A DNA stretch of 44,315 nucleotides from a virus. The notes under the pieces are model-generated. The model was not told where the DNA came from. It saw only the letters and a program-made list of their open reading frames with translations, and made no database searches. The stretch lies in IMG/VR virus record IMGVR_UViG_3300010413_000062, positions 1 through 44,315 of that record; one strand, 5' to 3'. Shown piece after piece: positions 7,846 to 33,350 of this stretch. The position numbers and the translations under genes are program-made. The first letter of the stretch is position 1. Every line of letters starts with the position of its first letter.

Positions 7846-8036
7846 CAGTTTTCTCCTAATTCAGTTAATATCCAGTCAATAACGTCTTGTGATTGATGAT
7901 GGTGACATTCATCGAGCACTCGTTCTAACGCAGCACGCCACGTTAATTTACAATTATTGATTACCATTGCTTTTTCTACTTCGTGTAGATAAGTAGGAAT
8001 ATCTTGTTTGTTTATCCACTCTTCAAACGCTTTCAT
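7845..8036 (-). CDS. Small hypothetical protein (63 aa)
   Basis: The chosen start at 8036 has GGAGGAAAGACG directly upstream; a longer frame from 8102 lacks such a site. The protein begins MKAFEEWINKQDIPTYL and is helical and acidic, with a HHH stretch near residue 45. The stop overlaps the start of the spanin candidate (TGATG). Function unknown. Confidence 0.65.
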   Translation of the reverse strand: MKAFEEWINKQDIPTYLHEVEKAMVINNCKLTWRAALERVLDECHHHQSQDVIDWILTELGEN

Positions 8037-8161
8037 CGTCTTTCCTCCATTCGTTCCAGCACCTGTGAGGTGCAGTACATTATCACAGCGGCCAAAGCCC
8101 ATTCCCCGTCTCCGGTGAGAAGCCCGGCTGTGGCGAACGCTACGGCGAGTATGTAGATCAT
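8033..8161 (-). CDS. Very small membrane protein (42 aa)
   Basis: ATG 8161 follows GGAGGTAGAAG and the stop overlaps the next start by four bases (ATGA). The peptide begins MIYILAVAFATAGLLTGDGE and continues with a second short hydrophobic stretch (WALAAVIMYC), then ends in charged residues (LERMEERR). Two membrane passes are possible. Because it lies two genes upstream of the spanin candidate, a lysis-related role is conceivable but unproven. Confidence 0.65.
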   Translation of the reverse strand: MIYILAVAFATAGLLTGDGEWALAAVIMYCTSQVLERMEERR

Positions 8162-8172
8162 TCTTCTACCTC

Positions 8173-10434
8173 CTAACACTGTCCAAAACTTGTCTTAGCC
8201 CATTCTGTTACCTGTATTCCCATAATCATCCGGTCTGGGTTGCCCACCTCTCCGTCGAGTATCTGAACTGTGTGGGGCAAGCATGACTGGATGTTACGCA
8301 ACAGAGTACTCTTGTCGTCTGAGGGGATGCCTTCTCGTTTGCACCACCATCGCCAAAGTTCGTAGAGATGATCTGCTGACACGCCCGGCCCTTCTGTAGT
8401 CTCTTCCAGACAGTACTGAGCAAAATACGGGATCGGTGATGTGAGTTGCTTGAACGCTCGCATGGCCATCCGTGATTCTTGTGGCTCGATGAATTTGCCA
8501 TTCTCATAGAGACTTTTCAACCCACGTAGCGCCCAATTAATCAGCTTGCCTTCTGATGCTTCCTGCGTAAGTCGGTCCTTGAGGGTGGTGTCGGCGTGAC
8601 CTACGAACGATTTATTGAACGGCAAGATCATGGTTCGGCGTTCGAGTGATCCGCTGTTGTCAGTGAGGGCCGGATAGTCGTTCATGGCAAAAGTGAAACG
8701 ACAATTTAGATGTACCTTGGGGAGATGCGCTTTGCCTTTCAGGTTGACAACCACGGCATCTCGGCCTACGATAGTCAGAATCTTGGCCAGTACGGATCGT
8801 TCCTCGCGCTTGGACGCCGATACCACATCCCCCATCACGACACTCAGCTTGTTCATAAGAGGATGTAATCCAAAATCCCCAGACAACGATAGAAACGAAG
8901 ACTCGCCTGCATTACAGTCGCCCATCATAGCCTGAAGGGCTGTTGTTACTGTACCCTTGCCTGCTCCGGTCAAACCCTTCAGCATCAAGAGTTTTTCCTG
9001 TGACATATCAGCGACAGTGTTGTACCCGAACCACTGTTGGAGTAAGAGCATCCGTTCTTCATCATCCTCTACGATGCTTGCATACACCTGTTCCCATAGT
9101 TCTGACTCGGCGTTTTCATCGAACTTGTAGGGGAACACGTTGAACGTGAAAAGGTCGGGTGTTGGTGGATACAGTTTGATATGCCCGGCCATGTACTCGT
9201 CTACATTGAGGATGCCGTTTTGAAACACGATCAGGCGTGATGGATCGGGGTGGTCGCCTGGTGTCAGCCAGCAAGGTGGGTCGGGTTCGATCAGACACTC
9301 AGCAGTACAGGCTTCCATGATGTCCCGGACCTTGGCGCTGGTGAGTTTGTACGGCTTGACGGCATTGGTTGCGTCGAGGAACTTTCGGCCTCCGATACCT
9401 TGGTATATCCGTGATTTGATCTGGTTCTTAGTCAGCTTCTCGTACACACCACCAGTGAACTCTACGAAATCTTCTCGGTAGATACCGAGCGTCTGCTTGC
9501 CCTCATCGGTTCTTGTATCTCGTAACCAAGTCCGGGCCACGACCAAGGCTTCGTCGCTCTCGAATATGTCGCTGTCAAGTGTTTGATCGCCCTGATTCTC
9601 AATATACCGTAGCAGTTCCTCTTTGGTTAGCCCTTTGTTCACCCACTGCCGCAAGTCCTTGACTCCTTCCGGGGGCATCAGTTTGGTACAGTCGGGGCAC
9701 TGATTCTTGAGTTGAGCAAACGTGGACTCCATCCCGGCCCGACCTGCCCCGGCGTCGTTCTCGCCGATGACTACAACTCGTCTACTGGTCAACAAGCCGA
9801 TCAGGTCTTGGCTCTTGCTGGCCGCACTCGGCTTGCCTACTACCACGAAGCCGAGGTCGTAGGCTGCACAGACATCAGAATGACCTTCTACGACCAGCGT
9901 TGGGTGTTCGGATGGGGCGAGGATCGACCAACTTCGGGTAACGAGTTTCTGACGAACAGGATCAAGGATGTGGAGATAACCGAGTTCCATCGGTTTGGCT
10001 GATCCTGCTTTGATGTGGACACAGATCACCGAGTTCGGGTTGTGGTGCTCGCCTTTGGGGTAGAGACAGCCATCAGGTTTGCCACAGAGCGGGCACGGGT
10101 ACGTTTTCGAGACCCGCGCCCAACCGTGTGGTTTCTCATACATGGAGGTGTCGTGACTAACAACGTAGACCAACCCACGTTTGCTACCAGGAACCATTAA
10201 CTTCTTACCGTTGGCGAATCGTCGGTTGAGGCCGATCACCTTACCCTCGGCGTTGCGTTCAGGTGTGACCCAGGACCAGCTACCATACTCATCACAGGGG
10301 ATCAAGCCGACTCCCGTGCTGTAGATGGATTCTACTGAGACCCCAAGCTGTTCGGCGAGAGCTTCGTACAAGGCCGGGAACCGGGCGATGTTGGCTACGT
10401 AGATGTTGTAGAGTTTTTCGATGTCAGTTGGCAT
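8173..10434 (-). CDS. Primase-helicase: zinc finger, TOPRIM and SF3 helicase (753 aa)
   Basis: This is the replicative primase-helicase. In order: a zinc-binding segment near residues 114-140 (CPLCGKPDGC, later Cys138); a TOPRIM domain at about 178-265 with VVEGHSD (Glu183) and VVIGENDAG (Asp227); a linker; then a superfamily 3 D5/P4-type helicase at about 400-680. Helicase motifs are Walker A GLTGAGKGT (Lys493), a Walker B-like VVMGDV, and the SF3 motif C/sensor FAMNDYPALTD (Asn585) followed by LERRTMILPF. The start at 10434 has GGAG ten bases upstream; a TTG one codon earlier is less likely. It belongs to the coupled replication operon. Confidence 0.92.
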   Translation of the reverse strand: MPTDIEKLYNIYVANIARFPALYEALAEQLGVSVESIYSTGVGLIPCDEYGSWSWVTPERNAEGKVIGLNRRFANGKKLMVPGSKRGLVYVVSHDTSMYEKPHGWARVSKTYPCPLCGKPDGCLYPKGEHHNPNSVICVHIKAGSAKPMELGYLHILDPVRQKLVTRSWSILAPSEHPTLVVEGHSDVCAAYDLGFVVVGKPSAASKSQDLIGLLTSRRVVVIGENDAGAGRAGMESTFAQLKNQCPDCTKLMPPEGVKDLRQWVNKGLTKEELLRYIENQGDQTLDSDIFESDEALVVARTWLRDTRTDEGKQTLGIYREDFVEFTGGVYEKLTKNQIKSRIYQGIGGRKFLDATNAVKPYKLTSAKVRDIMEACTAECLIEPDPPCWLTPGDHPDPSRLIVFQNGILNVDEYMAGHIKLYPPTPDLFTFNVFPYKFDENAESELWEQVYASIVEDDEERMLLLQQWFGYNTVADMSQEKLLMLKGLTGAGKGTVTTALQAMMGDCNAGESSFLSLSGDFGLHPLMNKLSVVMGDVVSASKREERSVLAKILTIVGRDAVVVNLKGKAHLPKVHLNCRFTFAMNDYPALTDNSGSLERRTMILPFNKSFVGHADTTLKDRLTQEASEGKLINWALRGLKSLYENGKFIEPQESRMAMRAFKQLTSPIPYFAQYCLEETTEGPGVSADHLYELWRWWCKREGIPSDDKSTLLRNIQSCLPHTVQILDGEVGNPDRMIMGIQVTEWAKTSFGQC

Positions 10435-10437
10435 CAA

Positions 10438-10605
10438 TTACTCCAATCGGTGTCCGCATACATGACAGTAATCTGGATTCGGGAAACGTATATCAAACGC
10501 ACGTTTGGCCCTACGCTTAACGAAATCAGCTTCTTCTTTCGATAGAGACTCGGCTCGTGCGTATTCGAGTATACACCAGTCTGTCAGTTCTTTGTCAGTC
10601 ATCAT
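10438..10605 (-). CDS. Small CxxC protein (55 aa)
   Basis: The start at 10605 follows GGGGAA in the end of the upstream gene; a GTG at 10620 would add five residues. The helical acidic body ends in YCHVCGHRLE, one half of a zinc ribbon. The end of the gene supplies the ribosome-binding GGAG for the primase-helicase, so the two are likely coupled. Function unknown. Confidence 0.65.
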   Translation of the reverse strand: MMTDKELTDWCILEYARAESLSKEEADFVKRRAKRAFDIRFPNPDYCHVCGHRLE

Positions 10606-10616
10606 GAGGTTCCCCG

Positions 10617-11381
10617 TCACACTTTACTCACTTGCTTCAGGATCGTATCCTTGATCTGGAACCACTGTTCCTCGGTGATCTTGGCTTCGTCCTCGTTGAC
10701 CTTGGCCACTTCGGCCAGCCACAACTCGTTCAAGGCGTCGTTAGTCACATCGTCCCGCTTGAGGTTGAAGCACTCGTTGTAGGCTTCGTCAGCCGTACAC
10801 TTGCCCACGGGCTTGCTGGCCTTGGGCGGCTTCGGGGCTGTCGGCTTAGATGGCTTCTTGCCCTTGGCGGCTGGCTTCTCGGCCTTCTTACTCTTGGCCG
10901 AGACTGGTTTGGCCGGGGTCTTGTTCGCGGCCAGGACTGAGGCGTATCGGGCCTGTAGAGCCATAGCGTCTTCCTTGCTGATGCTCTGGACGGTCTTGGT
11001 CGGCGGGGCGTCGGCTTCGTCTATCCACTGAACCTGAAGGCTGGTGTTCTCGTTGTAAGTCCGCTCTTCGACGCGGAAGGACAGGGGCAGGTCCGCCATA
11101 TCCATGTCCATAAGTTCCACGAAGCTGGCTCCATCCCAACCTGTTATCTTCTTGAGTTGCTGACTGTTCTTGGTCTCCTTGTCCTTGGAGTCGATCAGGA
11201 CGCCATACCATGTGATCTCATCGTGTTCGGAGTCTACCGGCAGGAACTCGCCGGTGTCCGGATCGTGGACCTCGGTTGCCCGGAGCATGAGTACTTCCTG
11301 CGGGAAGCCGTTTGTGGACTGGGTGAGGGCGTTACCTGTTATTACGCCACGATAGAAACCTGTCGTGTTGATTAGACCCAT
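10617..11381 (-). CDS. Putative single-stranded DNA-binding protein (254 aa)
   Basis: The N-terminal 135 residues are beta-rich and look like a compact OB-type or DUF669-type domain (GFYRGVITGNAL, LSFRVEERTYNENTSLQVQW). Residues about 155-195 are a Lys/Pro/Ala-rich linker, and the C-terminal 60 residues are helical and charged. The arrangement Sak4-like ATPase, this gene, then primase-helicase is the usual place of a phage SSB partner. It starts one base after the upstream stop, with AAAGGGGAA. The fold call rests on position and composition, not a clear motif. Confidence 0.5.
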   Translation of the reverse strand: MGLINTTGFYRGVITGNALTQSTNGFPQEVLMLRATEVHDPDTGEFLPVDSEHDEITWYGVLIDSKDKETKNSQQLKKITGWDGASFVELMDMDMADLPLSFRVEERTYNENTSLQVQWIDEADAPPTKTVQSISKEDAMALQARYASVLAANKTPAKPVSAKSKKAEKPAAKGKKPSKPTAPKPPKASKPVGKCTADEAYNECFNLKRDDVTNDALNELWLAEVAKVNEDEAKITEEQWFQIKDTILKQVSKV

Positions 11382-11382
11382 G

Positions 11383-11595
11383 TTAGTTCCCCTTTCGCTT
11401 GATTAGTTTGAGTTCTTGTGCTTTGAACTGATTAATCATTCCGTTTCTACGTTTTACCGTATACGGGTACTCTTCATTTGATTCATAGTCCGTTACTTTT
11501 CCCCGGTGCCCTATTCTAAAGAAACTCGACTGACTATATGACCCTAGTTCTTTCACAACCTCTACAGTGTCTCCTACTTTGAACTTGCGTGCCAT
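11383..11595 (-). CDS. SH3/KOW-like small protein (70 aa)
   Basis: A small beta-barrel-like protein: FKVGDTVEVVKELG, then GHRGKVTDYE and YPYTVKRRNG resemble an SH3-like or KOW fold of the kind that binds nucleic acid. ATG 11595 overlaps the ATPase stop (TAATG) with GGAGGTGA upstream. It sits between two recombination/replication genes. The specific role is unknown. Confidence 0.65.
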   Translation of the reverse strand: MARKFKVGDTVEVVKELGSYSQSSFFRIGHRGKVTDYESNEEYPYTVKRRNGMINQFKAQELKLIKRKGN

Positions 11596-12452
11596 TATTC
11601 ACCTCCAAAAAGCAATTGCCATAAACTATCATCGTCCTTGGTTTCAAACGAGATCACTGGATCATCCAAGGTCCGCGATTTGGCTTTGAAGTAGGTCTCT
11701 TCCTTGGTCTGAACCACGCGGGTAGTATCGCCTGATACCTTACCAAACGCCGCGTTCTTGTCCTGCTTCTTGACCCACGTTCCTTGATAATCAATACGGA
11801 AGATGTGGTCGGCCCACTCACACCAAAGAAGAAGAATCGAATACTGGCGACTATGATAAAGCCGAGGTTCATTGCAGAGATAATCGTCTCCCGCAGGATT
11901 GGCGATCTTGTTGTTGATCGACTGACAGATCACGATTACATTCTTACCGGCTTCGATCAATTTATCGCAATCAATGAGAGGCAGGCGCATCGCATCATAG
12001 AGGTGCTTGTAGCCTTTGCCATAGCCATAGGATTCGAGATTGGACGGTTTCGATCCTTGAGGACCAGATACAGTGTTGAGCACATGACGTTCGGCCAAGG
12101 ATTCAAGAATCGTTCCCGTGTCGATCACGACCGTCTGACAATCAAAATCGAGACAAGCACTGATGGCCGCTCGGACATCCTCGAATGTCTCTACGCTGGG
12201 AATGTGCTTGAGTAATTCCCCAGTCTTGGGATGTCGCAGCTTGCGGCCTCCGTCATCAAGGCCGATGAACACAGGATCAGGGGCCATGCTTGCAAGCGTG
12301 GTCTTGCCCATGCCGGTCTCGCCGTAGAGTATGATCTTCTCTCCACTGGTCGCGCCGTCCCACGCTTCGATGGAGAAGGTCTTGGCCTGATTAGGCTTGG
12401 GCGGTATCTTTGTTGTTGGTTTTATTATGGTTGGTGGTTTGGGTCGTAGCAT
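11595..12452 (-). CDS. Sak4-like RecA-fold ATPase (285 aa)
   Basis: A single P-loop ATPase domain: Walker A GETGMGKT at residues 44-51, Walker B TVVIDTG around Asp111, and a short FIGLDDGGRKL strand between them. The size and motifs match the Sak4-type phage recombination ATPases, which load onto single-stranded DNA with an SSB. The adjacent SSB candidate supports this. ATG 12452 has AAAGGAGATAACC upstream. The first 20 residues are Pro/Lys/Thr-rich and overlap the preceding small gene in another frame. Confidence 0.8.
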   Translation of the reverse strand: MLRPKPPTIIKPTTKIPPKPNQAKTFSIEAWDGATSGEKIILYGETGMGKTTLASMAPDPVFIGLDDGGRKLRHPKTGELLKHIPSVETFEDVRAAISACLDFDCQTVVIDTGTILESLAERHVLNTVSGPQGSKPSNLESYGYGKGYKHLYDAMRLPLIDCDKLIEAGKNVIVICQSINNKIANPAGDDYLCNEPRLYHSRQYSILLLWCEWADHIFRIDYQGTWVKKQDKNAAFGKVSGDTTRVVQTKEETYFKAKSRTLDDPVISFETKDDDSLWQLLFGGE

Positions 12453-12570
12453 TGGTTATCTCCTTTGTTCTTCTGATTCGTTCAGCTTCTTCTAATCGTT
12501 CTATGCGTATCGTTAGAACCAAAAACGACGCTAAGTAAACGACACAACCTACTATAATCAAATAACTCAT
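12391..12570 (-). CDS. Small single-pass membrane protein overlapping the ATPase (59 aa)
   Basis: From ATG 12570 (GAGGAAGGTGAGAAAG upstream) the peptide begins MSYLIIVGCVVYLASFLVLT, one N-terminal membrane helix, then a charged helix (RIERLEEAERIRRTKE) and a Thr/Asn-rich tail. The last 62 bases overlap the Sak4-like gene in another frame. Repeats at both sides suggest it entered as a cassette. Function unknown. Confidence 0.5.
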   Translation of the reverse strand: MSYLIIVGCVVYLASFLVLTIRIERLEEAERIRRTKEITNATTQTTNHNKTNNKDTAQA

Positions 12571-12573
12571 CTT

Positions 12574-12789
12574 TCTCACCTTCCTCTCTTAGTTGTTGGT
12601 TTGGGTCTCATTGGTTATCTCCTAAATATCCATTGCACATTGATATTCACATTCTTCGCAACAAGTACATGAAGAATCAGGATTATTATTTACATCTTCA
12701 TCATAGGGACATGGATGTGGGTCTGATGCTGGATTAACCCCACAATGAGGACACAGTTCTTCACTCATATCTCACCTTCCTCTCTTAGT
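12574..12789 (-). repeat. 20-bp direct repeats around a small Cys-rich gene
   Basis: The same 20 bases (TCTCACCTTCCTCTCTTAGT, plus strand) lie at 12574..12593 and 12770..12789. A second shared sequence, CATTGGTTATCTCCT, lies at 12450 and 12609. They place the same ribosome-binding leader before two different small genes and leave an 11-codon mini frame resembling the start of the ATPase joined to the end of the nuclease. Confidence 0.8.
12622..12768 (-). CDS. Cys-rich small protein (48 aa)
   Basis: ATG 12768 follows GGAAGGTGAGAT. The peptide has CPHC near the start, then a cluster CTCCEECEYQC near the end, eight cysteines in 48 residues, so metal binding is likely. It is acidic and has no membrane segment. 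It is preceded closely by the RecB/Cas4-like nuclease. Function unknown. Confidence 0.65.
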   Translation of the reverse strand: MSEELCPHCGVNPASDPHPCPYDEDVNNNPDSSCTCCEECEYQCAMDI

Positions 12790-13938
12790 AAAGTTATCAG
12801 GAACTTCATCCGACCCCAACTCGACGTGGTTGTAGCACAGATCACAGAACTCGCAGCGGTACGTAGCCTCGCAGGACTGTTCGTTCCTCCACCACCTGTT
12901 GTGCTTGTTCATCGACCTGATCGACTGGTAGATGTTAAACAACTCCCACTGGAACGCCTCGATGTCGTTCGACTGGTGTACGATCTCCTTACGAGCGAAG
13001 TAGAACTCCGGGCGCTCGGTGATGTCTTGTAGGAGTCTGGCCCCGAACATCTGGGGTGTTTCTCGGATGGTGAAGGTGCCGGGTTTGGCTCCGGGTTCTA
13101 CTTCGGTTTTTGTTCTGTTTACTGTCAATATCTCTGGTTGCGGATCATCTTGGGTAATCTTGAATTTCTCCCCACAGTACTCCCCGGTCTCCACAAACTT
13201 CTTACTGTCAGTCTGCGATAGCTTCTTCGGCTTGATCCCCGGCTTGTGCCACGCATCATACACCACACCACAGGCTCCCAGTCCAAGCTGGGCAGCGGCG
13301 TAGGTGTAGAGCCGGGTCTGGGTGTCGAGGGTGAGGTGGGACCAGAACGTAGAATCAGAGTCAATGCTCTTGCTGGTGCTCTTGTAGTCGTGGACGAAAC
13401 GGTTGTTGCCAGCGGCGAACACCTTGTCGATCTTGCCCAAGAGCCGGGCCTTGAGCGAGTGTCCGGTGATGGGCGACAGGAGTGGCAGCTTGAAGGACTG
13501 TTCGAGGGCTTCGACCTCGTACCCCTGATCCTGCTGCTGATACCACCACCTGTATCCGACCAGCGTGTAGAGCAGAGTGATCTTCTCGGTCTCCCACTCT
13601 TCGATGGTCTTGGAAATCGGAGGTGTATTGTACCGCTCGTTCAAGTGTCGGATCACGGCGTCCATCGGGTCGTCGGGATTGCGGCCCGTGCCTTCGCAGA
13701 GGGGGCAGTTGGGGTTGGGATAACTGGGATCACCAGCAGCCAAGTTGACTTCATCGCACTTACATACCCTACCTGGCTCGGCGTCATATATCTCTTGGAT
13801 TCGATGATAGTTCGTTCCCACTCGCAGGGCATCGGTGTCTTCGATGGGCGTGAGACCGAGAACGTAGCGGTAGTAGTAGCGCATCGGACACGCTTTGAAA
13901 CACGCCATACTGGTAGCTGATAGGCTGATCTTGCTCAT
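12772..13938 (-). CDS. RecB/Cas4-like PD-(D/E)XK nuclease (388 aa)
   Basis: Motifs of the RecB-family exonuclease fold are present: VGTNYHRIQE (His45, Glu49), LLGKID (Asp171), HDYKS (Asp184, Lys186) and DTQTRLYTYA (Gln207). N-terminal CFKAC and a C-terminal group Cys356, Cys362, Cys365 and Cys368 (RCEFCDLC) resemble the iron-sulphur ligands of Cas4 and AddB. An inserted zinc-finger-like loop (CKCDE, then CPLCEGTG) lies at 59-84. ATG 13938 overlaps the upstream stop (TGATG) with GGAGG before it; a GTG one codon earlier is less likely. A role in DNA end processing or host DNA degradation is inferred. Confidence 0.88.
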   Translation of the reverse strand: MSKISLSATSMACFKACPMRYYYRYVLGLTPIEDTDALRVGTNYHRIQEIYDAEPGRVCKCDEVNLAAGDPSYPNPNCPLCEGTGRNPDDPMDAVIRHLNERYNTPPISKTIEEWETEKITLLYTLVGYRWWYQQQDQGYEVEALEQSFKLPLLSPITGHSLKARLLGKIDKVFAAGNNRFVHDYKSTSKSIDSDSTFWSHLTLDTQTRLYTYAAAQLGLGACGVVYDAWHKPGIKPKKLSQTDSKKFVETGEYCGEKFKITQDDPQPEILTVNRTKTEVEPGAKPGTFTIRETPQMFGARLLQDITERPEFYFARKEIVHQSNDIEAFQWELFNIYQSIRSMNKHNRWWRNEQSCEATYRCEFCDLCYNHVELGSDEVPDNFTKRGR

Positions 13939-14129
13939 CACTCATCCTCCATAAGCAACAACTCAACGTCACTTACTGTCACATCAAGCAGTTCACCATA
14001 ATCCCCGCCGTCCGTGATCTGGTCGAGGTCCAGATTCTTGGCTGTTTCCTTGGCTTCTTGTTCGTCCCTAGCATGAACTTCTATGGCCCATGTCTGGGTT
14101 ACTTCGAGTGTTACCTTATATGGCTTCAT
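13938..14129 (-). CDS. Small hypothetical protein (63 aa)
   Basis: ATG 14129 overlaps the stop of the VRR-NUC gene (ATGA) and AGAGGA lies upstream. The peptide reads as a beta-alpha-beta unit (YKVTLEVTQTWAIEVHARDE, then a helix and VTVSDVELLLMEDE), like small ferredoxin-like phage proteins. Acidic C-terminus. Function unknown. Confidence 0.7.
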   Translation of the reverse strand: MKPYKVTLEVTQTWAIEVHARDEQEAKETAKNLDLDQITDGGDYGELLDVTVSDVELLLMEDE

Positions 14130-14578
14130 ATCAGTCCTCTCATATAATACTCTAACTCTGGAATCCCATGCACAACGAAGTATACTCCGCCAGCCTCTCG
14201 CACTCGCTTCATCCGTCGCTGCTGTCCTTTACTCTGACGACCACCCCGGCCTCTCTTGCACTCGATTTCAAATCCACGCCCATCAGGAGGAAGATACCCA
14301 TGAATATCCCCGCTATCTTTGATTCCATACCGGGCTTCGCCAGGACCACGGCCACAAGCATGAGGATCACAGAGAATACGTCTTGCTCGTAACCATTTTA
14401 CACACAAGTCTTGCACTCCACTTTTGCCTAATTCTGGCAGATCAGGACAGTCCACGACCGGGTGGGTCGGCACGCCTCCGTCCTTGGCCTCGGGCCGGGG
14501 GCGTCGGCCTTCCTTCTGGGCGAGGTAGGCAGCGTGGCAGTTGTCGAGTTTGTCGCGCTTAGTTTTCATCTGAATCAT
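14126..14578 (-). CDS. VRR-NUC type PD-(D/E)XK endonuclease (150 aa)
   Basis: The C-terminal 70 residues match the VRR-NUC fold: KDSGDIHGYLPPDGRGF with Asp91, EIECKRG with Glu106-x-Lys108, and a downstream Gln-rich helix (RQSKGQQRRMKRVREAGG) followed by YFVVHG. Such phage enzymes act as structure-specific or Holliday-junction nucleases. The N-terminal 70 residues are basic with two Cys. The start could be 14578 or 14569; both overlap the upstream gene, and neither has a strong ribosome site. Confidence 0.8.
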   Translation of the reverse strand: MIQMKTKRDKLDNCHAAYLAQKEGRRPRPEAKDGGVPTHPVVDCPDLPELGKSGVQDLCVKWLRARRILCDPHACGRGPGEARYGIKDSGDIHGYLPPDGRGFEIECKRGRGGRQSKGQQRRMKRVREAGGVYFVVHGIPELEYYMRGLI

Positions 14579-14717
14579 CAAACTCTATCGGGTCATCAAC
14601 ATCTGGACAAAAAATATTTTCTTCGGGATTTTCAATTTTATTCCATAGATTACAGCCAGGACCACCATGTTCAAAAGATAAATAATGCGTACAGTTTACA
14701 CACTTCATCTCTCTCAT
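14559..14717 (-). CDS. Small zinc-ribbon-like protein (52 aa)
   Basis: The peptide begins MREMKCVNCTHYLSFEHG, then GPGCNLW and FCPDVDD: a CxxC pair with two further Cys, as in short phage zinc ribbons. The tail is very acidic. ATG 14717 lies close to the AGGGG; ATG 14708 (49 residues) has better spacing. It directly follows the polymerase gene. Function unknown. Confidence 0.65.
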   Translation of the reverse strand: MREMKCVNCTHYLSFEHGGPGCNLWNKIENPEENIFCPDVDDPIEFDDSDEN

Positions 14718-14720
14718 CCC

Positions 14721-16661
14721 CTAAAGTGTCTCACTCAACTTAGCTTCGACGTCCACTGGTAACCCCTCAGCCCAGTCCGGTACGGTACGCATGATCTCAA
14801 CTTGCTTGGCCAGCAGTTCATCGGCCCGATCTACAGGAAGCACGGTCGTTATATCATCGTAGATATGGAGGATCACCGGGATGCCAGTAGCTTCGCATTT
14901 CAACACCCAGTCGGCTAACAGACATCGGCTGATGGCTTGGTCGATGTTCTCCGTCAGCGCTCCTCCCCACAACGCCCCATGATGCCACTTGATCGAACCC
15001 TTCCGGTCGATCTTGGCATGGCGGTAGTAGAGTATCCGGCCCGATGGAAGCACGATCTCAACCGTTCCGTGACTGTTACGAAATGTTACCGGGCCAACCT
15101 CGGCTTCGAGGTGGGGGAACCGGACCACTCGGCGAAAAGCGTTCTCTACCCGATCCCAATATTTGACCACCTTGGAACAAGTGTTGCGATAGAGGTTGAT
15201 GGCATCTTGACAGAACTTGAAGTTCCATTCACCCGAATCAAACAGAGGCCGAAGTTTAGGGTTGGACAAACAGTTGTTGTAAAATCGAGTAGTCCCAAGG
15301 CCGTACTGGTCGCCGAGCACGTTTGTCTTACCTATGACATTACGCATCAGATCAAACCGGGCGTAGACATCGGGGGGATCGTCACTCTTGGGTTTACGAC
15401 ACGGTTCTTTGAACAGTTTGGAGGCGTACTCTGAGTACAGGTCTTCGCCGTTGGCAAATTTATCCAGCATGTCCTGTTGCCCAGCGAGCCAGAACGCGAT
15501 CCGGGCTTCGATCTGGGCCGAGTCACAGACTCCCAGCACGTAGCCATCAGGAGCCGAGAGTGTCTTACGTGTCTCCTTCTTGAGAGGATCGGTCTCGATG
15601 CCACCCCGGTCACGCTTGGTCATGTTGAGTAGGTTGTACCCCTCACCCCCGGACCATCGACCCGTGTGACATCCGTGATAGTTCAGAGGCACGCGAAGCA
15701 GGCCGCCATTGGCGATAGACTGTGTGATGATGTGCCCCAGCTTCAGGATATGGGCGTTCCACTCGCTCGCCCCCATCTTAGCTTCCATCAGATCGCGGAC
15801 TTCCTTCTTGGGGTGAACCATGAGTTGCTGGCAGGCTTCGTCGGTCTTGGCAAGGGCCGGGATGTTGCCCTGCTTGCCTTGTTTCATCGGTATTTCTTCA
15901 CCATCAGGGAGTGCTTCCTGAAGGAGTTTCGGAAACAATATCCGAGACCTGAGTTCTTTGGGAGTACGGCCTGATGCCTGGATCGCAGTAGCGACCTTGG
16001 TTCGCATCTGAACCTGGAGCCTTCGGGCTAAGTCTCGGTCTACCTTGAACCGCTTGTGGAGCCAGAGGTCTAAAGTATGCCGGGCCAGGGCGAGTTCAGT
16101 CTTGGGATTGGACAGCTTTGGCAGCAGGATTTTGAAAAGTTCTGTTTCAAGTTCGACATCATGGATCGTGTACTCGGCCAGGGCTTGTCGTTGTTCGGGG
16201 GTCATGGTGTCCCAGTGCAGACCTTTGAAGTTCTGGGTTTCACCTTTGGGTTTGAGGCCGAACATCTTGGCCATGTCTTTGAGCCTGTGGGACATCCGAC
16301 TATCGTAGTGACTGGCCAAATCCTTGAGGTCGATGATGTACTTGGGGATGATCCTGAACTTTTCTTGGAGGATCGTGATGTCGAACCGGGCGTTCTGTAC
16401 GAGGACAGTATAACGGTCAAGGTGCGGCTGTGTCGCTTTGAGATAATCTTCAATCTCATTGGGAGCAAAGAAGATCGACTGTTCTGTAGTACCCGCACCC
16501 AACCCCGTGAACTCGAACCGATCATCCATGATGTACTCTATCACTGAAAGTTTTCCCAAACTATACTCGGCAGAGAAAAAAGTTTCAAAATCGAGGCATA
16601 AAACATCAACAGGATAACCGACATTTTGTAATATATCTTGCCACACTATACACTTCTCCAT
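14721..16661 (-). CDS. Family A DNA polymerase with 3'-5' exonuclease (646 aa)
   Basis: Exonuclease motifs: LDFE (Asp24, Glu26), QNARFD (Asp94) and YTIHD (Tyr164, Asp168), so proofreading looks intact. Polymerase motif A is CDSAQIEAR (Asp380); motif B is RNVIGKTNVLGDQYGLG (Lys445, Tyr453). By spacing from Lys445 and the YG pair, the site equal to E. coli Pol I Phe762 is Leu449. Motif C reads HIYDDI (Tyr601-Asp602-Asp603) in place of the usual HDE. No 5' nuclease domain is present, as is usual in phages. ATG 16661 has no good ribosome site and overlaps the end of a homing endonuclease remnant. Confidence 0.93.
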   Translation of the reverse strand: MEKCIVWQDILQNVGYPVDVLCLDFETFFSAEYSLGKLSVIEYIMDDRFEFTGLGAGTTEQSIFFAPNEIEDYLKATQPHLDRYTVLVQNARFDITILQEKFRIIPKYIIDLKDLASHYDSRMSHRLKDMAKMFGLKPKGETQNFKGLHWDTMTPEQRQALAEYTIHDVELETELFKILLPKLSNPKTELALARHTLDLWLHKRFKVDRDLARRLQVQMRTKVATAIQASGRTPKELRSRILFPKLLQEALPDGEEIPMKQGKQGNIPALAKTDEACQQLMVHPKKEVRDLMEAKMGASEWNAHILKLGHIITQSIANGGLLRVPLNYHGCHTGRWSGGEGYNLLNMTKRDRGGIETDPLKKETRKTLSAPDGYVLGVCDSAQIEARIAFWLAGQQDMLDKFANGEDLYSEYASKLFKEPCRKPKSDDPPDVYARFDLMRNVIGKTNVLGDQYGLGTTRFYNNCLSNPKLRPLFDSGEWNFKFCQDAINLYRNTCSKVVKYWDRVENAFRRVVRFPHLEAEVGPVTFRNSHGTVEIVLPSGRILYYRHAKIDRKGSIKWHHGALWGGALTENIDQAISRCLLADWVLKCEATGIPVILHIYDDITTVLPVDRADELLAKQVEIMRTVPDWAEGLPVDVEAKLSETL

Positions 16662-22486: not shown

Positions 22487-22920
22487 TTCTCTACCTCCTC
22501 ATTGAACGGTCCCGGCCACGTCACCGGAACCCACGTACTCTCATCAGCCGGATCGACACACCGATACACAACGGCGTCGGCCCCGAACCTACGCCAAGCT
22601 CGGCGCTTGGCTGTTCGCTCAGTGTTGGCCTGATACCTGATTCGTTGCCCGTTGGGTAAGTGAACACACCACCATAGCGGGGCATTGGCCGGGCCTCGGT
22701 ACGGCGGTACGGTGATCTGCTTCCAGGTGGTTCGGTCCATGAAGTTCTCGTAACTGTAGACCACAACATCAGGGCCGAGAAGTTGTTGTGCTCTGCGAAC
22801 CGCCATCGAACATCGTTGACGCCTGAATGTTATCCGGTTCGGGTTCGGCGTGCCATCCGGGTCCAAGTCGGGAGGTTCGGACCCGTCTGGAAGTGGTTTA
22901 TATGCGTAATAGGTTGTCAT
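22483..22920 (-). CDS. Hypothetical protein (145 aa)
   Basis: The start at ATG 22920 overlaps the upstream stop (ATGA); a longer frame upstream only reads the Ala-coding repeat of the neighbour in another frame. The protein has two similar halves: RRAQQLLGPDVVVYSYENF in the first and RRAWRRFGADAVVYRCVDP in the second, so an internal duplication is likely. Each half ends near a TWKQITVP or TWVPVTWP stretch. Function unknown. Confidence 0.65.
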   Translation of the reverse strand: MTTYYAYKPLPDGSEPPDLDPDGTPNPNRITFRRQRCSMAVRRAQQLLGPDVVVYSYENFMDRTTWKQITVPPYRGPANAPLWWCVHLPNGQRIRYQANTERTAKRRAWRRFGADAVVYRCVDPADESTWVPVTWPGPFNEEVEK

Positions 22921-23669
22921 TCGCTCACTGCCTTTTCTGCAAGGGTTTGGAGGTCGATGCTTGCTGCTGCCCGTGCTGCCCATGCTGCCTCTGCTGCTAT
23001 CCGTGCTGCCTTTGCTGCCTCTGTTGCTGCCCGTGCTGCCCATGCTGCCTCTGCTGCTGCCTCTGCTACTGCTGCCCGTGTTGCTGCCCATGCTGCTGCC
23101 TCTGCTGCCCATGCTGCTGCCTCTGCTGCTATCCGTGCTGCCTCTGCTGCCTCTGCTGCTGCCCGTGCTGCCCATCCTGCCTCTGCTGCTGCCTCTGCTG
23201 CTGCTGCCCGTGTTGCTGCCTCTGCTGCTGCTCGTGCTGCCCATGCTGCTGCCTCTGCTGCCTCTGCTGATCTATTTTTCCCCGATAACCAATCCTCAGC
23301 CCATTGTATAAAAGCAGGATCATCACAGACAGATAAAGCACAGAATATGGCGTACCGTATTCGCTGTTCCGTAGTTACATGGGGCAGATTAAGTTCTCTC
23401 GTCAAACGCATACTCCGGTAGCCGCACTTCAACCCCCAATCATTTTTCGTTTCACCGTCTACTTCAACTTCAAAAAGACGAGGGTTCTCAATACCCGCGT
23501 GTATTGGATTGTGTAATACAGCCAATAACGGGCTGTCATAGCAATGTAACCAGCCGTCAGAGCACAGGTTTTGTTTTGGGTCTCCTTCGGCTTCGCGCCA
23601 TACACCAAGTTCCCATTGATAACCATTGTGGGTCTGCATGTTCTGATCTGTTAACTTAAATTTTCGCAT
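22917..23669 (-). CDS. DUF7666-like protein with long Ala-rich repeat tail (250 aa)
   Basis: Residues 1-130 form a compact domain (KFKLTDQNMQTHNGYQWELG, then RLFEVEVDGE) similar to phage DUF7666-type proteins as I remember them. Residues about 133-237 are almost only Ala with Glu, Arg and Trp (AAEAAAWAARAAAEAATRAA), expected to form one long helix. GGAGAAAAACTT precedes ATG 23669. The tail is encoded by tandem GCAGCA-type repeats likely to vary in number between relatives. Confidence 0.7.
   Translation of the reverse strand: MRKFKLTDQNMQTHNGYQWELGVWREAEGDPKQNLCSDGWLHCYDSPLLAVLHNPIHAGIENPRLFEVEVDGETKNDWGLKCGYRSMRLTRELNLPHVTTEQRIRYAIFCALSVCDDPAFIQWAEDWLSGKNRSAEAAEAAAWAARAAAEAATRAAAAEAAAEAGWAARAAAEAAEAARIAAEAAAWAAEAAAWAATRAAVAEAAAEAAWAARAATEAAKAARIAAEAAWAARAAASIDLQTLAEKAVSE
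22959..23273 (-). repeat. Ala-coding low-complexity tandem repeat (about 315 bp)
   Basis: On the plus strand this reads as many TGCTGCC and TGCTGCT units. On the minus strand it codes the Ala-rich helix of the DUF7666-like protein. Frame is kept throughout, so it is under coding selection. It creates long false frames on the other strand. Confidence 0.9.
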
Positions 23670-28087: not shown

Positions 28088-28425
<338 letters not shown>

Positions 28426-28690: not shown

Positions 28691-28728
28691 TATCTTTCCC
28701 CTTGATTGGGCACCATTGCCCTACATAG

Positions 28729-28757
28729 AGTATAGCATATATTTGGCTTAGTGCCAA
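28729..28757 (-). promoter_or_regulatory. Sigma70-type promoter P-C
   Basis: On the minus strand: -35 TTGGCA (28757..28752), 17-bp spacer, -10 TATACT (28734..28729). The transcript would start with GGGCAATGGTGCCC (28721..28708), a 5-bp hairpin at its very 5' end. It drives the 72-residue gene. Confidence 0.85.
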
Positions 28758-28876
28758 GTGCCCTGTCAAGAACATTCTGCCAGATCGCAAAATTCTGTTA
28801 TCGGACCCCCAGGGTAGTACCTTCGGTTATGGGACGTGGGAGGACCCGGACTCCCTCTTGGACCCCCCATCCGCAG

Positions 28877-28920
28877 CCCAAAAACGGCCCAAAAACGACC
28901 CGCCGTAACCCCAAAAACAG
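28877..28920 (+). repeat. 11-bp-phased CCCAAAAACG repeats upstream of the late leader
   Basis: CCCAAAAACGG at 28877 and CCCAAAAACGA at 28888 are adjacent; a third, CCCAAAAACAG, starts at 28910, exactly 33 bp from the first. Between 28758 and 28984 no gene is seen. The A-tracts share one helix face, so they could be an UP element or activator sites for the 36-bp element about 65 bp downstream. Confidence 0.7.
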
Positions 28921-28984
28921 CCTCCGAAAAGGAGTCTCTGACATCCACCAGAAAAAATTGACATAATCCGAAAAATCCCTACTG

Positions 28985-29020
28985 GAAACCATAGCAAAAA
29001 CGACGAAAAGCACGTATATA
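28985..29020 (+). promoter_or_regulatory. 36-bp element, copy 2 (plus strand), upstream of late operon
   Basis: Identical over 36 bases to the reverse complement of 21544..21579. It ends GTATATA and is followed by TAGGAGAG, so a transcript starting there would begin with a 5' stem-loop, as phage RNA polymerase transcripts often do. It directs transcription to the SPFH-protease-terminase operon. Confidence 0.78.
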
Positions 29021-29127
29021 TAGGAGAGTAGTAGTTTTTCTCTCCTGGGAATCGGGAGCACTCGCGTAGATGTCGCCGATCCCAACGCCGGAACCGGGCA
29101 TGCAGGTTCGACTCCTGATCCGGCTTT
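29021..29127 (+). ncRNA. Structured late leader with three hairpins and a tRNA T-arm-like minihelix
   Basis: Hairpin 1: AGGAGAG (29022..29028) with CTCTCCT (29040..29046). Hairpin 2: GGGAATCGG (29047..29055) with CCGATCCC (29076..29083). Hairpin 3: GCCGGA (29087..29092) with TCCGGC (29119..29124), enclosing CAGG-TTCGACT-CCTG (29103..29117). The inner arm matches the tRNA T-arm/B-box consensus GGTTCGANTCC with a 7-nt TTCRANY loop. D and anticodon arms are missing. The whole leader ends three bases before the next ATG, which has no ribosome site. Confidence 0.6.
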
Positions 29128-29670
29128 ATGAATTGGTTATCGCAGGTACTCGAACGTCTATTTTGTTGGTTTCCAAGGTTGTGGATCATCAATCCTGATG
29201 AATCAGGCGTTCGCATTACCCTCGGTAAACACACCAAAGAATGTCCTCCGGGCTGGTACTGGTTTCTTCCTCTGATCCATACCAAGTTCAAGGTGAACAC
29301 ATCTACCCAAGGTGTCAGATTCGCCATCCAGTCGGTTACGACCAAGGACGATCAGGACGTAGCTATCCGTGGAGCCGTCCTTTATCGGATCAACAATGCC
29401 TACAAGGCTCTTTTCGAGACCAACGACTTCGATCAGAGCCTCGAAGCCGTCGCCGGAGGTGTTATAGAGGCGTTCGTAGCTTCCAAAACCTATGATGAAC
29501 TCAGAGATCGTGAGACGATCCGGACCGAACTGGCTAAGGCACTTCGGGCCGAAGCCGCAGGATGGGGTATCAGACTCCTCCGGGTCTATGTACCGGACAT
29601 CGGACGAGTTCGGAACATCCGAGTTCTCTCAGATAGTACACAGACAATACTACCGTTTTCTCAAGAATAG
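29128..29670 (+). CDS. SPFH/Band-7 (stomatin-like) protein (180 aa)
   Basis: The N-terminal 25 residues are hydrophobic and aromatic (WLSQVLERLFCWFPRLWIIN), as in monotopic membrane anchors. Then comes a Band-7 domain: SGVRITLGKHTKECPPGWYW, the DDQDVAIRGAVLYRINNAYK core, and a helix ending in RETIRTELAKALRAEAAGWG and IRLLRVYVPDIG. Usual family members are 250-350 residues; here the coiled-coil tail is missing, leaving a minimal domain. It is the first gene of the late operon, two genes before an exported protease. ATG 29128 has no ribosome site. Such proteins scaffold membrane microdomains and regulate proteases. A phage copy at this location is unusual. Confidence 0.82.
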   Translation: MNWLSQVLERLFCWFPRLWIINPDESGVRITLGKHTKECPPGWYWFLPLIHTKFKVNTSTQGVRFAIQSVTTKDDQDVAIRGAVLYRINNAYKALFETNDFDQSLEAVAGGVIEAFVASKTYDELRDRETIRTELAKALRAEAAGWGIRLLRVYVPDIGRVRNIRVLSDSTQTILPFSQE

Positions 29671-29680
29671 GAGACCACAC

Positions 29681-30046
29681 ATGCAGATCGACAATGCGGG
29701 GTACAATGCCGCTCCTAGCGCCGAACAGAGTCAGCCCGTTATAGCCTCAGCAGACGGGGCTACCAGTCAGAAGCTCACCAACGCCTCAGCAGACACCAAC
29801 ACGACCGCCACGGTGGTTGCCGGGGCCAGATACAGGTTCTCGGCTACCAAGACCGGATCGTTCCTGTTTGGCCTCGCCACGACTGCCACAGCGACCAATA
29901 TCAGGTGGGTGTGCCCTCTGTCGGCCAGCATTGAGATACAGGTGCCCATCGGCTATACGACCCTTCACTATCAGACTGATACGAACAACGGCGTAGGTTG
30001 GCTGGTTCGGATCAAAAGCCAGATAGACGAGGAACCGACCCAGTAA
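29681..30046 (+). CDS. Putative beta-rich structural protein (121 aa)
   Basis: ATG 29681 follows AATAGGAGACC. The sequence (KLTNASADTNTTATVVAGAR, then FLFGLATTATATNIRWVCPL and IPIGYTTLHYQTDTNNGVG) is beta-rich and Ala/Thr-rich, like small phage head decoration or fibre-base proteins I recognise. No signal peptide. It lies between the SPFH gene and the protease. Confidence 0.7.
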   Translation: MQIDNAGYNAAPSAEQSQPVIASADGATSQKLTNASADTNTTATVVAGARYRFSATKTGSFLFGLATTATATNIRWVCPLSASIEIQVPIGYTTLHYQTDTNNGVGWLVRIKSQIDEEPTQ

Positions 30047-30074
30047 CCAGTAACCAATATCAGGAGACACAGCC

Positions 30075-30773
30075 ATGAAGCAGGCCATGAAGCGAGCACT
30101 GATTGTAACAGTTATAGTGATTGTATCGGTTTTACTGGCAGGGAGCCAACTACCTGAGTACTCGAATCCGTTTCCTACTGAGGTTCTCAAGTACTGTGGG
30201 ATTATCACTGATGGTCATGGTTGTGGTTCTGTCGTGGTCATCGGACCTGATCTTCTGCTTACGGCGGGGCACTGTATCGGCTACCCGGATATGTACGTAG
30301 AGATTAACGGACAGCGATATGAGATCGTAGAGGATTGGGCAGACCCGGAAGAAGATGTGGGGTTCCTCAGAATCGACCCGAATGGAGCGCTCCTGGTCCC
30401 CATCCAACTTGGCCCGATGCCGGAGCTACTCGATACAGTTTATCTGGTGGGTAGCCCGTATGGCCCGGATTTTGCCAACACCATCACCAAAGGTGTCGTG
30501 TCACACCTTGATCGAGATATTTATGGTCGGGATGACCTCGTACAGACTGATGCCGAAGGAGCGCCTGGGTCCAGTGGAGGGCCGCTGTTCGATGAACAAG
30601 GCCGAATCGTGGGTATTTGTGTGATCGGGCCGAACCCCGGAGGCGGGGTTACGCTCTGTGAGCCGGTAATAGACATCCGGGCTGCTCTGGGCAGGTTTCA
30701 GCACCGACCAGAGAAGGCAGCCCCTAACGCCGTCGTGGAGGATTCGACTGATGCCGAACAAGGCGACCAGTAA
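30075..30773 (+). CDS. Exported trypsin-like serine protease (232 aa)
   Basis: An N-terminal basic start and hydrophobic core (KRALIVTVIVIVSVLLAGSQ) form a signal peptide or membrane anchor. The trypsin-fold catalytic triad is complete: TAGHC (His66), EEDVGFLRI (Asp94) and GSSGGPLF (Ser167). Four Cys (41, 50, 67, 182) could form disulphides, which fits an envelope location. The C-terminal 25 residues are acidic and disordered. No prohead-type (U9/S14/S49) motif is present, so it is not the usual capsid maturation protease. AGGAG precedes ATG 30075. The substrate could be host envelope proteins or the SPFH neighbour's complex. Confidence 0.9.
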   Translation: MKQAMKRALIVTVIVIVSVLLAGSQLPEYSNPFPTEVLKYCGIITDGHGCGSVVVIGPDLLLTAGHCIGYPDMYVEINGQRYEIVEDWADPEEDVGFLRIDPNGALLVPIQLGPMPELLDTVYLVGSPYGPDFANTITKGVVSHLDRDIYGRDDLVQTDAEGAPGSSGGPLFDEQGRIVGICVIGPNPGGGVTLCEPVIDIRAALGRFQHRPEKAAPNAVVEDSTDAEQGDQ

Positions 30774-30978
30774 AGCCCAGTGGCGTCTCCTGAAGGGAAT
30801 ATCCGAAGGTAGCATCCCGCCCAAGGGCCATCTGACCAAGACCAAGGCTGCGGAGATGCTCGGCGGACAGACGCCGGAAGGACTGCCGGAACGATCTGAT
30901 AAGGGGTTGACCAAGCGAGCCAAGGCTAAGAGAGCGCAGACCCGGAGGAAGAAGGGACAGAAGCACAGGTTCAAGTGA
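30751..30978 (+). CDS. Small basic protein (75 aa)
   Basis: The first 23 bases overlap the protease end in another frame. It contains SKAQWRLLKGISEGSIPPKG, a pattern I recognise in short phage proteins near terminase, and ends in a Lys/Arg tail (KRAKAKRAQTRRKKGQKHRF), suggesting DNA binding. GGAGG lies upstream. Confidence 0.65.
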   Translation: MPNKATSKAQWRLLKGISEGSIPPKGHLTKTKAAEMLGGQTPEGLPERSDKGLTKRAKAKRAQTRRKKGQKHRFK

Positions 30979-30979
30979 T

Positions 30980-31099
30980 ATGCAGATGACCGCGCAGGAT
31001 TTGGTCATACTTGCCAATCTCTTTGATCGTGGTGTCATCACCAAAGAACAGATGCAGCAAGCAGTGACGATTTACCTGGAACAGTTTAGTAAGAAATGA
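30980..31099 (+). CDS. Very small protein (39 aa)
   Basis: The peptide starts MQMTAQDLVILANLFDRGVI and continues TKEQMQQAVTIYLEQFSKK, a two-helix unit. It follows the stop of the basic protein by one base and overlaps the next start by four bases (ATGA), so it belongs to the coupled operon. Unknown. Confidence 0.6.
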   Translation: MQMTAQDLVILANLFDRGVITKEQMQQAVTIYLEQFSKK

Positions 31100-31431
31100 G
31101 CAAGAAAAGCCTGAGTGAGTGTCTCAAGAAAATCGGCGAAGAAAAGGTAACGGTCATCATCGACGGCATCATGCACGAATGTTCGCAGACCGAGGCCACG
31201 GCTCGCAAGCTCTACCTGTTGGCCAACGGCGGCACCGAAACCCTTGAAGTAGACGGCGAGATGGTCACGGTCCGATATAAGCCCAACGCCAGTGCAGCCA
31301 AGACACTCAGAGAGTTCACCGAAGGCAAAGCCGCGCCGGAGCCGCCCAAGGAGAGCGAACCCCCGCTGACACCGGGTAAGTACAAGAGTTCGATAGGCCG
31401 TAAGCTCAACGAACGGTTTGGAGCCAAATGA
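31096..31431 (+). CDS. Putative terminase small subunit by position (111 aa)
   Basis: Ends four bases into the start of the large terminase (ATGA). Residues 1-75 are alpha/beta (KKIGEEKVTVIIDGIMHECS, then TARKLYLLANGGTETLEVDG), the rest Pro/Lys-rich and flexible (PPLTPGKYKSS). No HTH is obvious, so the terminase small subunit role rests on position only. Confidence 0.55.
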   Translation: MSKKSLSECLKKIGEEKVTVIIDGIMHECSQTEATARKLYLLANGGTETLEVDGEMVTVRYKPNASAAKTLREFTEGKAAPEPPKESEPPLTPGKYKSSIGRKLNERFGAK

Positions 31432-33350
31432 GCAGGCATCTACAGGAACTACGCCCGAATTTACCAACGCCGTTTCCGAACATCCCTGATATTTGGACTG
31501 ATCCGAAAACGGGTATCGCCATCCCGAAACGCAAGGAGGAGAATATCAAGTGGCGCATGGATCTGCTCGAACAGGCCGAGTATGACAAGAAGCTACAACA
31601 GCAGCTTTTTGATGCCTGTGCTGAGTCGCAGTTGTTCTGGGTGAACGCCTTTTGTATGACGTTTCACCAGTTTGACGTGGCTGAGGACGGAACCAGGACA
31701 GAATCGAAGGCGGCGGACCAACCGATGATAACATGGCCGATTCAGGATGAACTCCTGTCTCGGTTTGAGACGTGTATAAAGACTGGTGAGGATGTACTGA
31801 TCGACAAGGCTCGTGATATGGGCGCGAGTTGGTGTTGTGTGTACTTCATGCACTGGTTGATGCTCTTTCGCAAGTCAAAAAAGCCGACAGAATTGCTTGA
31901 GATGTCCCGAAACGAGGACTACGTAGACAAGTCCGGCAACATGAAAGCCCTTTTTCAGAAGCACGACTACATCAACAAGTGGCTTCCTGATTGGATGCGG
32001 CCCCCGGATTGCCTCAAAGGACAGAAAAACCGCTCTCACATGCACTGGTACAACCCCATCACCAACGCTACGCTTGATGGCGAGTCAACAACTAAGCACG
32101 CGGCCCGTGGTGATAGGCGTTTGGTGGGGCTTTTGGACGAGTTTGGTGCTGTTCAAAACGGTTCGGCCATGCGTATGGCGTCCAGAGACGCTTGTTTGGT
32201 CCGAATCATCAACTCGACCAGTGTTCCGGGGTCCGAATACAACAAATGGCGGTCTGATGGGACCATCAAGGTCTTCATTATGCCTTATTGGGAACACCCG
32301 GAGAAAGGTAAAGACCGATACACGAAGCAAACAGCGAGTGGAAAGTGGGAAATCCGGTCTCCCTGGTTCGACAAGGAAGAAGCAGCTCGTGGGGCGAAGT
32401 ACATGGCAACCGAAGTGCTCCGCGAGGACTCCGAACCCGGCCAGATGTTCTTCACAGCCGACATTGATGGGCACGAAGTCCTGTATGCCCGGCCTCCGGC
32501 TACGATCTGGGATGTCGGATTCCGTAAGATGTTGAATTACAAGGAACTTATGAAGGCCACTCATAACCGTGATGTGAGTTCGGTGCTGGCCGTTCAGCAT
32601 GGGACCGGGTTGTTGAAGGTCTGGTGTGACCTAATAGACGGACGCCCGGATCAGACCAAGACCTACATCTTCGGAATTGATACCGGCAAGGGCCAGGGAG
32701 CCTCGAACTCGGTTATCAGTATCAAGTGCCGGGAAACCGGCGATAAAGCGGGTGAATGGACGAGCGCGGAATATCCGCCTTACGAGTTTGCCCAGTATGT
32801 CATCGCTATAGCAATTTGGTTTGGCGGGGCCAAGCCGTATCGGTTGCCGTTTCTCAAATGGGAGAATAATGGTCCCGGCTGGGATTTGGGGCGGATCATC
32901 GTCAAGAAGTGCCAGTATCCGTACTTCTACCGCCACGAACGGACGGGGACTACGACCGACAAGAAGACCCAGCAGTACGGGTTCCAGATGAGTCGCGAGA
33001 GCAAGTACATCCTCTTGTCGGCCTACGACCAAGCTCTTTCGGACGGCACGTATGCCAACAGATCGGCCATCGCACTCGAAGAAGCCCGGACGTACATGCA
33101 CTATGCCAACGGGGGCATCGGCCCATCGCACATGATGATGGAGTCACAGTCGGCCAAGAAGACACACGGCGACCGGGTGATAGCCGATGCTCTGACTATC
33201 GAGAATAAGGACATACCGGGCAAGAAGAAGGAGAAAGGCCCGGAGTTGCCACAGAATACCGCAGGATACAGGTTCATGCAACACAGAAAGAACATGCAGC
33301 GGCGTATGTATAAGACCGGACGCCGTGGTTTTGATTTTAGGGGAATATGA
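31428..33350 (+). CDS. terL: Terminase large subunit (640 aa)
   Basis: The ATPase half has a Walker A-like DKARDMGASW (about 124-133) and Walker B GLLDEFGAV (about 234-242). The nuclease half has FGIDTGKGQGAS (about 415) and a closing HGDRVIADAL (about 605), the acidic residues of the RNase H-like headful or cos nuclease. Size and domain order are normal. It packages DNA through the portal next to it. Confidence 0.93.
   Translation: MSRHLQELRPNLPTPFPNIPDIWTDPKTGIAIPKRKEENIKWRMDLLEQAEYDKKLQQQLFDACAESQLFWVNAFCMTFHQFDVAEDGTRTESKAADQPMITWPIQDELLSRFETCIKTGEDVLIDKARDMGASWCCVYFMHWLMLFRKSKKPTELLEMSRNEDYVDKSGNMKALFQKHDYINKWLPDWMRPPDCLKGQKNRSHMHWYNPITNATLDGESTTKHAARGDRRLVGLLDEFGAVQNGSAMRMASRDACLVRIINSTSVPGSEYNKWRSDGTIKVFIMPYWEHPEKGKDRYTKQTASGKWEIRSPWFDKEEAARGAKYMATEVLREDSEPGQMFFTADIDGHEVLYARPPATIWDVGFRKMLNYKELMKATHNRDVSSVLAVQHGTGLLKVWCDLIDGRPDQTKTYIFGIDTGKGQGASNSVISIKCRETGDKAGEWTSAEYPPYEFAQYVIAIAIWFGGAKPYRLPFLKWENNGPGWDLGRIIVKKCQYPYFYRHERTGTTTDKKTQQYGFQMSRESKYILLSAYDQALSDGTYANRSAIALEEARTYMHYANGGIGPSHMMMESQSAKKTHGDRVIADALTIENKDIPGKKKEKGPELPQNTAGYRFMQHRKNMQRRMYKTGRRGFDFRGI

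Follow-up and report, generated by a model that had tools for sequence, protein, structure and literature searches.

A minimal stomatin-type SPFH protein gene is paired with an exported HtrA/DegS-type protease gene across distant phages

SPFH proteins occur in all domains of life, and the way in which they control proteases is disputed. In E. coli, HflK/C combine a TM helix and a coiled-coil dome with SPFH domains in the periplasm, and they work in the context of FtsH, an AAA metalloprotease whose active site is cytosolic. SPFH genes of bacteria and archaea also pair with NfeD-type protease genes (PMC2636767). In phages, Band-7 proteins were noted earlier in the T4-like phages 44RR, Aeh1, and RB43 (PMC1524935), and the Band-7 protein of Salmonella phage SH19, 263 aa long, adjoins a gene annotated as superinfection exclusion (PMC3220722); in the available portions of the sources on 44RR, Aeh1, RB43, SH19, and ctgrD200, no trypsin-like protease is reported beside the Band-7 protein. 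Trypsin-like proteases of phages are annotated as well (phrog_9683 and phrog_11383, with a member in phage pCB2047-A), and no SPFH gene is annotated near the pCB2047-A protease. Both protein families are already annotated in phages; on their pairing, a literature search that covered mostly papers outside subscription returned no report of a phage SPFH-HtrA/trypsin pair. An earlier note on this DNA, which described the module as not known to its author, was fair with respect to the pair and too broad with respect to its two parts. A very short SPFH protein travelling with an HtrA-type protease in fast-evolving phages would offer a small, tractable test case for protease control. Should the two act on the envelope, proteolysis would join the known means of phage takeover, exclusion, or lysis.

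The window analysed here is the whole 44,315-base IMG/VR virus record IMGVR_UViG_3300010413_000062 (positions 1 to 44,315). Its late genes, on the plus strand, begin at 29128 and extend to the right end, and a plus-strand frame at 3-1904 that is open at the left end suggests that they carry on there; in a circularity check, the two ends did not join in one frame. A minus-strand arm from ~7.1 to 28.7 kb holds primase, polymerase, and helicase genes. The SPFH and protease genes, 407 bp apart, both lie upstream of the terminase:

28700 to 29127, no strand: divergent intergenic region by ORF layout; the SPFH gene opens the late operon (plus strand), and the leftward arm (minus strand) lies below ~28690.
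29128 to 29670, plus strand: minimal stomatin-type SPFH/Band-7 protein, 180 aa, by Pfam PF01145, fold, and stomatin profile.
29681 to 30046, plus strand: small ~121-aa protein, predicted soluble, with a Shine-Dalgarno sequence; often found between SPFH and protease.
30075 to 30773, plus strand: exported/membrane-anchored HtrA/DegS-type serine protease, 232 aa, PDZ-less, by PF13365, triad, and fold.
30751 to 30978, plus strand: small basic protein g4, overlapping the 3' end of the protease gene and kept in part of the clade.
31096 to 31431, plus strand: g5, candidate small terminase subunit, directly before TerL, with 66 homologs.
31428 to 33350, plus strand: large terminase subunit (TerL), anchor of the clade comparison.

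The PHROG matches of TerL are weak (phrog_5989, E 0.004), and the call is supported by the portal-like gene behind it at 33576 (SU10_portal, E 2.2e-07). It is its position that makes g5 a candidate small terminase subunit; it gave no family match. Homologs of g4 are present in 15 of the sequences searched, and g4 matched nothing in Pfam or PHROG. The 121-aa gene has homologs in 29 sequences among the window and L001-L079, placed upstream of TerL in related loci, with a weak match to phrog_35541 (E 0.0014) and an alternative ORF start at 29492, an upstream in-frame ATG. An independent contig, L001, shares 99.5% DNA identity with the window, and purifying selection acts on SPFH (dN/dS 0.05-0.12) as well as on the protease (dN/dS 0.09-0.31), which together rule out chance or an assembly artefact. 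A TerL profile search of 84,980 genomes found no relatives or prophages, and no related DNA was found among cultured phages. By tblastn against 50,697 phage records, the window's SPFH protein had no match, that of L088 had one distant match (Podoviridae sp. ctgrD200), and a similar protease was found in only 26 records.

The SPFH protein matches Pfam Band_7 (PF01145) with E 9.7e-25 over residues 20-158; Band_7 is matched by 36/36 family members, and a profile of the 36-sequence alignment places human stomatin on top (E 8e-24), followed by QmcA and HflK. Its AlphaFold2 model (monomer, pLDDT 92.3) consists of an amphipathic N-terminal helix (residues 2-11/15), an SPFH1+SPFH2 core (residues 17-160), and a short tail; the best Foldseek match is human stomatin (9oh9, E 3.9e-14), and HflK/C, QmcA-YbbJ, and prohibitin are matched as well. 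With stomatin (human 9oh9/9z7u) and archaeal PH1511, it has in common the SPFH1+SPFH2 core and a presumed monotopic membrane attachment. In contrast to them, the phage protein stops right after SPFH2, has neither coiled coil nor C-terminal oligomer segment, and carries a short amphipathic helix in place of the hydrophobic hairpin. The chain ends ~20 residues past SPFH2, complete family members are 160-198 aa long, the phage Band-7 family phrog_200 being longer (379 positions), and a wall helix is missing in 36/36 members. Unlike the SPFH cage complexes (HflKC, prohibitin, stomatin, and flotillin), the phage protein has no coiled-coil wall helix, C-terminal cap, TM helix, or hairpin, and no signal peptide either; only 2/35 members reach a hydropathy of 1.6 (median 0.93). 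The N-terminal helix is amphipathic in nearly all members, with a median moment above ~99% of shuffles, which suggests that the protein binds the membrane at its cytosolic face. Where the earlier note spoke of a Band-7 membrane scaffold, the Band-7 assignment holds, and the scaffold was that reader's own deduction for a protein that has no transmembrane helix.

The missing wall helix, together with the short chain, is also what would be expected if the mini-SPFH were a dominant-negative partner of host SPFH rings (HflK/C, QmcA, or flotillin), independent of the phage protease, i.e., if co-assembly without a wall helix broke host membrane-protein quality control. The target would nearly always be present, since Band_7 genes occur in 14/14 control cellular genomes; however, the SPFH domains of HflK/C are periplasmic and the phage protein has no export signal, and we consider this reading rather improbable.

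The protease matches Pfam Trypsin_2 (PF13365, E 2.5e-22; Trypsin, E 5.6e-10), as do 51/51 family members, and the His66/Asp94/Ser167 triad reported earlier is invariant in the 26- and 51-sequence alignments. The 51 aligned proteases are ~20-57% identical to that of the window, and the family is too divergent for a conserved-stretch search (26-protease alignment). The N-terminal hydrophobic segment of the window's protease (19 residues, mean Kyte-Doolittle value 2.48) is flanked by positive charge, and it forms a helix (residues 2-23) in the AlphaFold2 model (monomer, pLDDT 91.9). The description of a Band-7 gene and a signal-bearing protease as the first and third late genes is borne out by PF01145, PF13365, and this segment. 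A near-N-terminal segment with a mean hydropathy of at least 1.6 is present in 55/56 complete protease copies, net positive charge ahead of it in 48/56; the L080 protease has a clear lipobox (LTGC) and that of L095 a Sec-like signal. With hydrophobic segments near-universal and these two variants beside them, export appears to be kept though the form of the anchor varies.

DegS/HtrA proteases are the closest in fold and sequence, having in common with the phage enzyme a trypsin-like domain and an N-terminal membrane anchor: Foldseek ranks DegS without its PDZ, Deg1, and other HtrA proteases as the best folds, and the profile matches HtrA1 (2.4e-49), with DegP/DegQ and DegS also among the closest relatives. 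A PDZ domain is found in 0/51 members, so DegS-type peptide gating is not expected here. All 51 also match both phrog_9683 and phrog_11383, the window's protease aligning with phrog_9683 from residue 1, N terminus included. The protease is expected on the periplasmic side. For an exported/anchored HtrA/DegS-type enzyme, work on the envelope is the obvious reading, and the kept active site, kept export, and HtrA kinship favour envelope proteins as its probable target. Neighbouring genes in other phages hint at a part in lysis or at the envelope: the protease homolog of the cultured Sulfitobacter phage pCB2047-A is encoded within a cluster with holin and endolysin genes, and that of Rhizobium phage RHph_TM3_3_14B ~3 kb from a lysozyme gene.

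A protease encoded upstream of the terminase, as in most relatives, may instead bring to mind head maturation, i.e., a prohead protease, particularly as no other one was recognised in the window and as the L109 record has its protease between portal and scaffold-like genes. A prohead protease would be cytosolic, packaged in the capsid, and free of an export signal, whereas nearly all complete copies here carry an export/anchor segment, and kept N-terminal TM, Sec-like, or lipoprotein segments make little sense in a capsid. The nearest kin are periplasmic HtrA/DegS enzymes rather than S14, S49, S78, or herpes-type head proteases, and the protease gene sits among replication genes in L083 and among fibre-like genes in L085. 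Several podovirus-like phages, moreover, need no head protease. This reading is hard to square with the anchor, and we consider it improbable.

Linkage of the two genes was then followed beyond the window. The TerL search of IMG/VR gave 78 relatives, of which 29 of the longer records were used for gene counts: Trypsin_2 is found in 26 and Band_7 in 9, and SPFH without the protease was never seen within the TerL clade. Among 20 TerL-anchored records with at least 4 kb upstream, 9 have both genes, 8 the protease only, 3 neither, and 0 SPFH only; the near-core status of the protease leaves the in-clade association short of significance (protease in 9/9 vs 8/11, Fisher p 0.22). SPFH-based scans brought in phages with very distant terminases, and SPFH adjoins the protease beside strongly diverged terminases in L080, L096, L105, and L112. 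The earlier note would have its proposal refuted by a lack of conserved linkage in related phages. Linkage was found in 27 records, with both gene orders represented (reversed in L112 and L105); the two genes are no more than 3 kb apart in 26 of these and no more than 1 kb apart in 20. The protease is present in 14/16 SPFH records of at least 30 kb vs 0/14 random virus contigs (Fisher p 8e-7, shared ancestry uncorrected), and in 5/7 long SPFH records outside the clade vs the same 0/14 (Fisher p 0.001, shared ancestry uncorrected). Please note that this control is small: 14 random viral contigs chosen by a 16-base pattern, 416 kb in total, five of at least 30 kb. The distribution of SPFH over the TerL tree takes at least 6-8 gains or losses (8 changes, 6 of them forced by well-supported branches), each time near the protease. 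The pairing of SPFH with the protease is genuine and is found repeatedly, also in phages that are only distantly related. Linkage peculiar to the window's phage is ruled out by the pairs across relatives and distant-terminase phages.

The main rival to joint action is that the two are independent accessory genes placed in one variable insertion region where the late operon begins, the protease having its own core envelope function and SPFH an unrelated one. The protease usually occurs without SPFH, and the locus is a general cargo site where GroES-like, HNH, and other optional genes are found in relatives. Within the clade, the two genes could be neighbours through inherited position, the protease being near-core and SPFH optional. 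SPFH without a Trypsin_2 gene is seen in L086 (44.8 kb) and L089 (331 kb), and four lineages, L083, L085, L109, and L116, carry the two genes with a separation of at least about 10 kb (~13-29 kb along the record, L109 being nearer if a circular map is assumed). Against independence stand the co-occurrence that reaches distant terminases (the 5/7 long records), the repeated SPFH gains and losses that stay beside the protease, and the lack of any SPFH-only record in the TerL clade. We regard independence as somewhat unlikely.

At the other extreme, the two proteins may form a viral complex like HflKC-FtsH or stomatin-NfeD, in which oligomers of SPFH would cluster the protease together with its membrane substrates, or shield or gate them. 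The stomatin-type fold is consistent with such a complex, as is direct adjacency, with intergenic gaps of 12-14 bp in L080 and L096, 2 bp in L112, and within the same 2-14 bp range in L046; bacterial SPFH genes are frequently paired with protease genes (PMC2636767). The phage locus has the SPFH fold and membrane protease context in common with HflK/HflC and FtsH, and gene linkage in common with SPFH plus NfeD/FtsH modules, but the phage protease belongs to neither the NfeD (ClpP-class) nor the FtsH family, and no NfeD, ClpP-class, or FtsH match was found in the 51 members. Without a coiled-coil wall or cap, SPFH could not build a closed cage of known type, and the predicted topologies set the SPFH and protease domains on opposite membrane faces. 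Distances among the SPFH proteins track those among the proteases weakly, and not beyond what TerL explains (partial Mantel 0.11, p 0.13); L080 and L096 encode the SPFH proteins nearest to that of the window (61-62%), and their proteases belong to another subgroup. Co-divergence as proof of partnership was rejected on this result, which agrees with independent genes, as do the unlinked lineages, and both count against a complex. The analogy with HflKC-FtsH and stomatin-NfeD drawn in the earlier note is not supported on these points, i.e., architecture, membrane face, peptidase family, and co-divergence, and we are doubtful of a complex of that kind.

Our preferred reading, to which we give an even chance, is a late module acting on the envelope, in which a mini-stomatin serves as optional modulator of the membrane process carried out by a PDZ-less DegS-like protease. 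It builds on the gene families, triad conservation, export/anchor segments, co-occurrence, and adjacency observed here. Anchored through its N-terminal segment, the protease would sit at the periplasmic side of the host inner membrane and cleave envelope proteins of the host or of the phage late in infection. The mini-stomatin would dock on the cytosolic face through its amphipathic helix and serve as an optional modifier of the membrane process of the protease, perhaps by membrane organisation, through the transmembrane anchor of the protease, or by interference with host SPFH assemblies. Localisation, late timing, the envelope target, and the action of both proteins on one process are what we infer. 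Our levels of confidence overlap and are not shares of one whole: the complex and the dominant-negative partner are sharper versions of this broad reading. A new-architecture machine, in which a wall-less inner-leaflet mini-stomatin controls an outer-leaflet anchored PDZ-less protease across the membrane to reprogram the host envelope as the late phase begins, seems to us unlikely.

Several features of related loci deserve mention. GroES (Cpn10)-like phage genes lie upstream of TerL in the same variable locus (L010:6845-7189, L041:7137-7403, and L046:2401-2664). At the protease position of close relatives, L004:8164-8490 encodes a 109-aa protein with a TM/lipobox-like start, possibly a functional replacement of the protease. 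L023 (near 3900) and L098 are 99-100% identical through SPFH and protease and ~60% inside TerL, a drop that reflects either recent recombination or a chimeric assembly. In L161 (the record of L109), ~7500-14800 holds TerL, portal, anchored protease, GroES-like, and scaffold-like genes, with the protease at the usual prohead-protease place, yet with a TM segment.

In the window itself, the SPFH start codon has no Shine-Dalgarno sequence. A tRNA-like mini hairpin at 29087-29127 (GCCGGA ... GGTTCGACTCC ... TCCGGC) abuts this start codon; ARAGORN and Rfam were empty for it, as they were for tRNAs and known RNA families at the start of the late operon, and its fold is no better than that of shuffles (z -0.26). 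The divergent intergenic region has 7 promoter-like sites vs 3.6 expected, which is no evidence on its own. A (TC)n simple repeat is at 28200-28230 (divergent intergenic region), with several imperfect inverted repeats nearby. No endolysin was recognised within the window. A holin-like 59-aa ORF with one TM segment (6802-6981, plus strand) sits at the end of the late genes, opposite a lipoprotein-like 149-aa ORF (7396-7845, minus strand), and 22917-23669 (minus strand) encodes a protein with long alanine/glutamate-rich A-A-E-A-A repeats.
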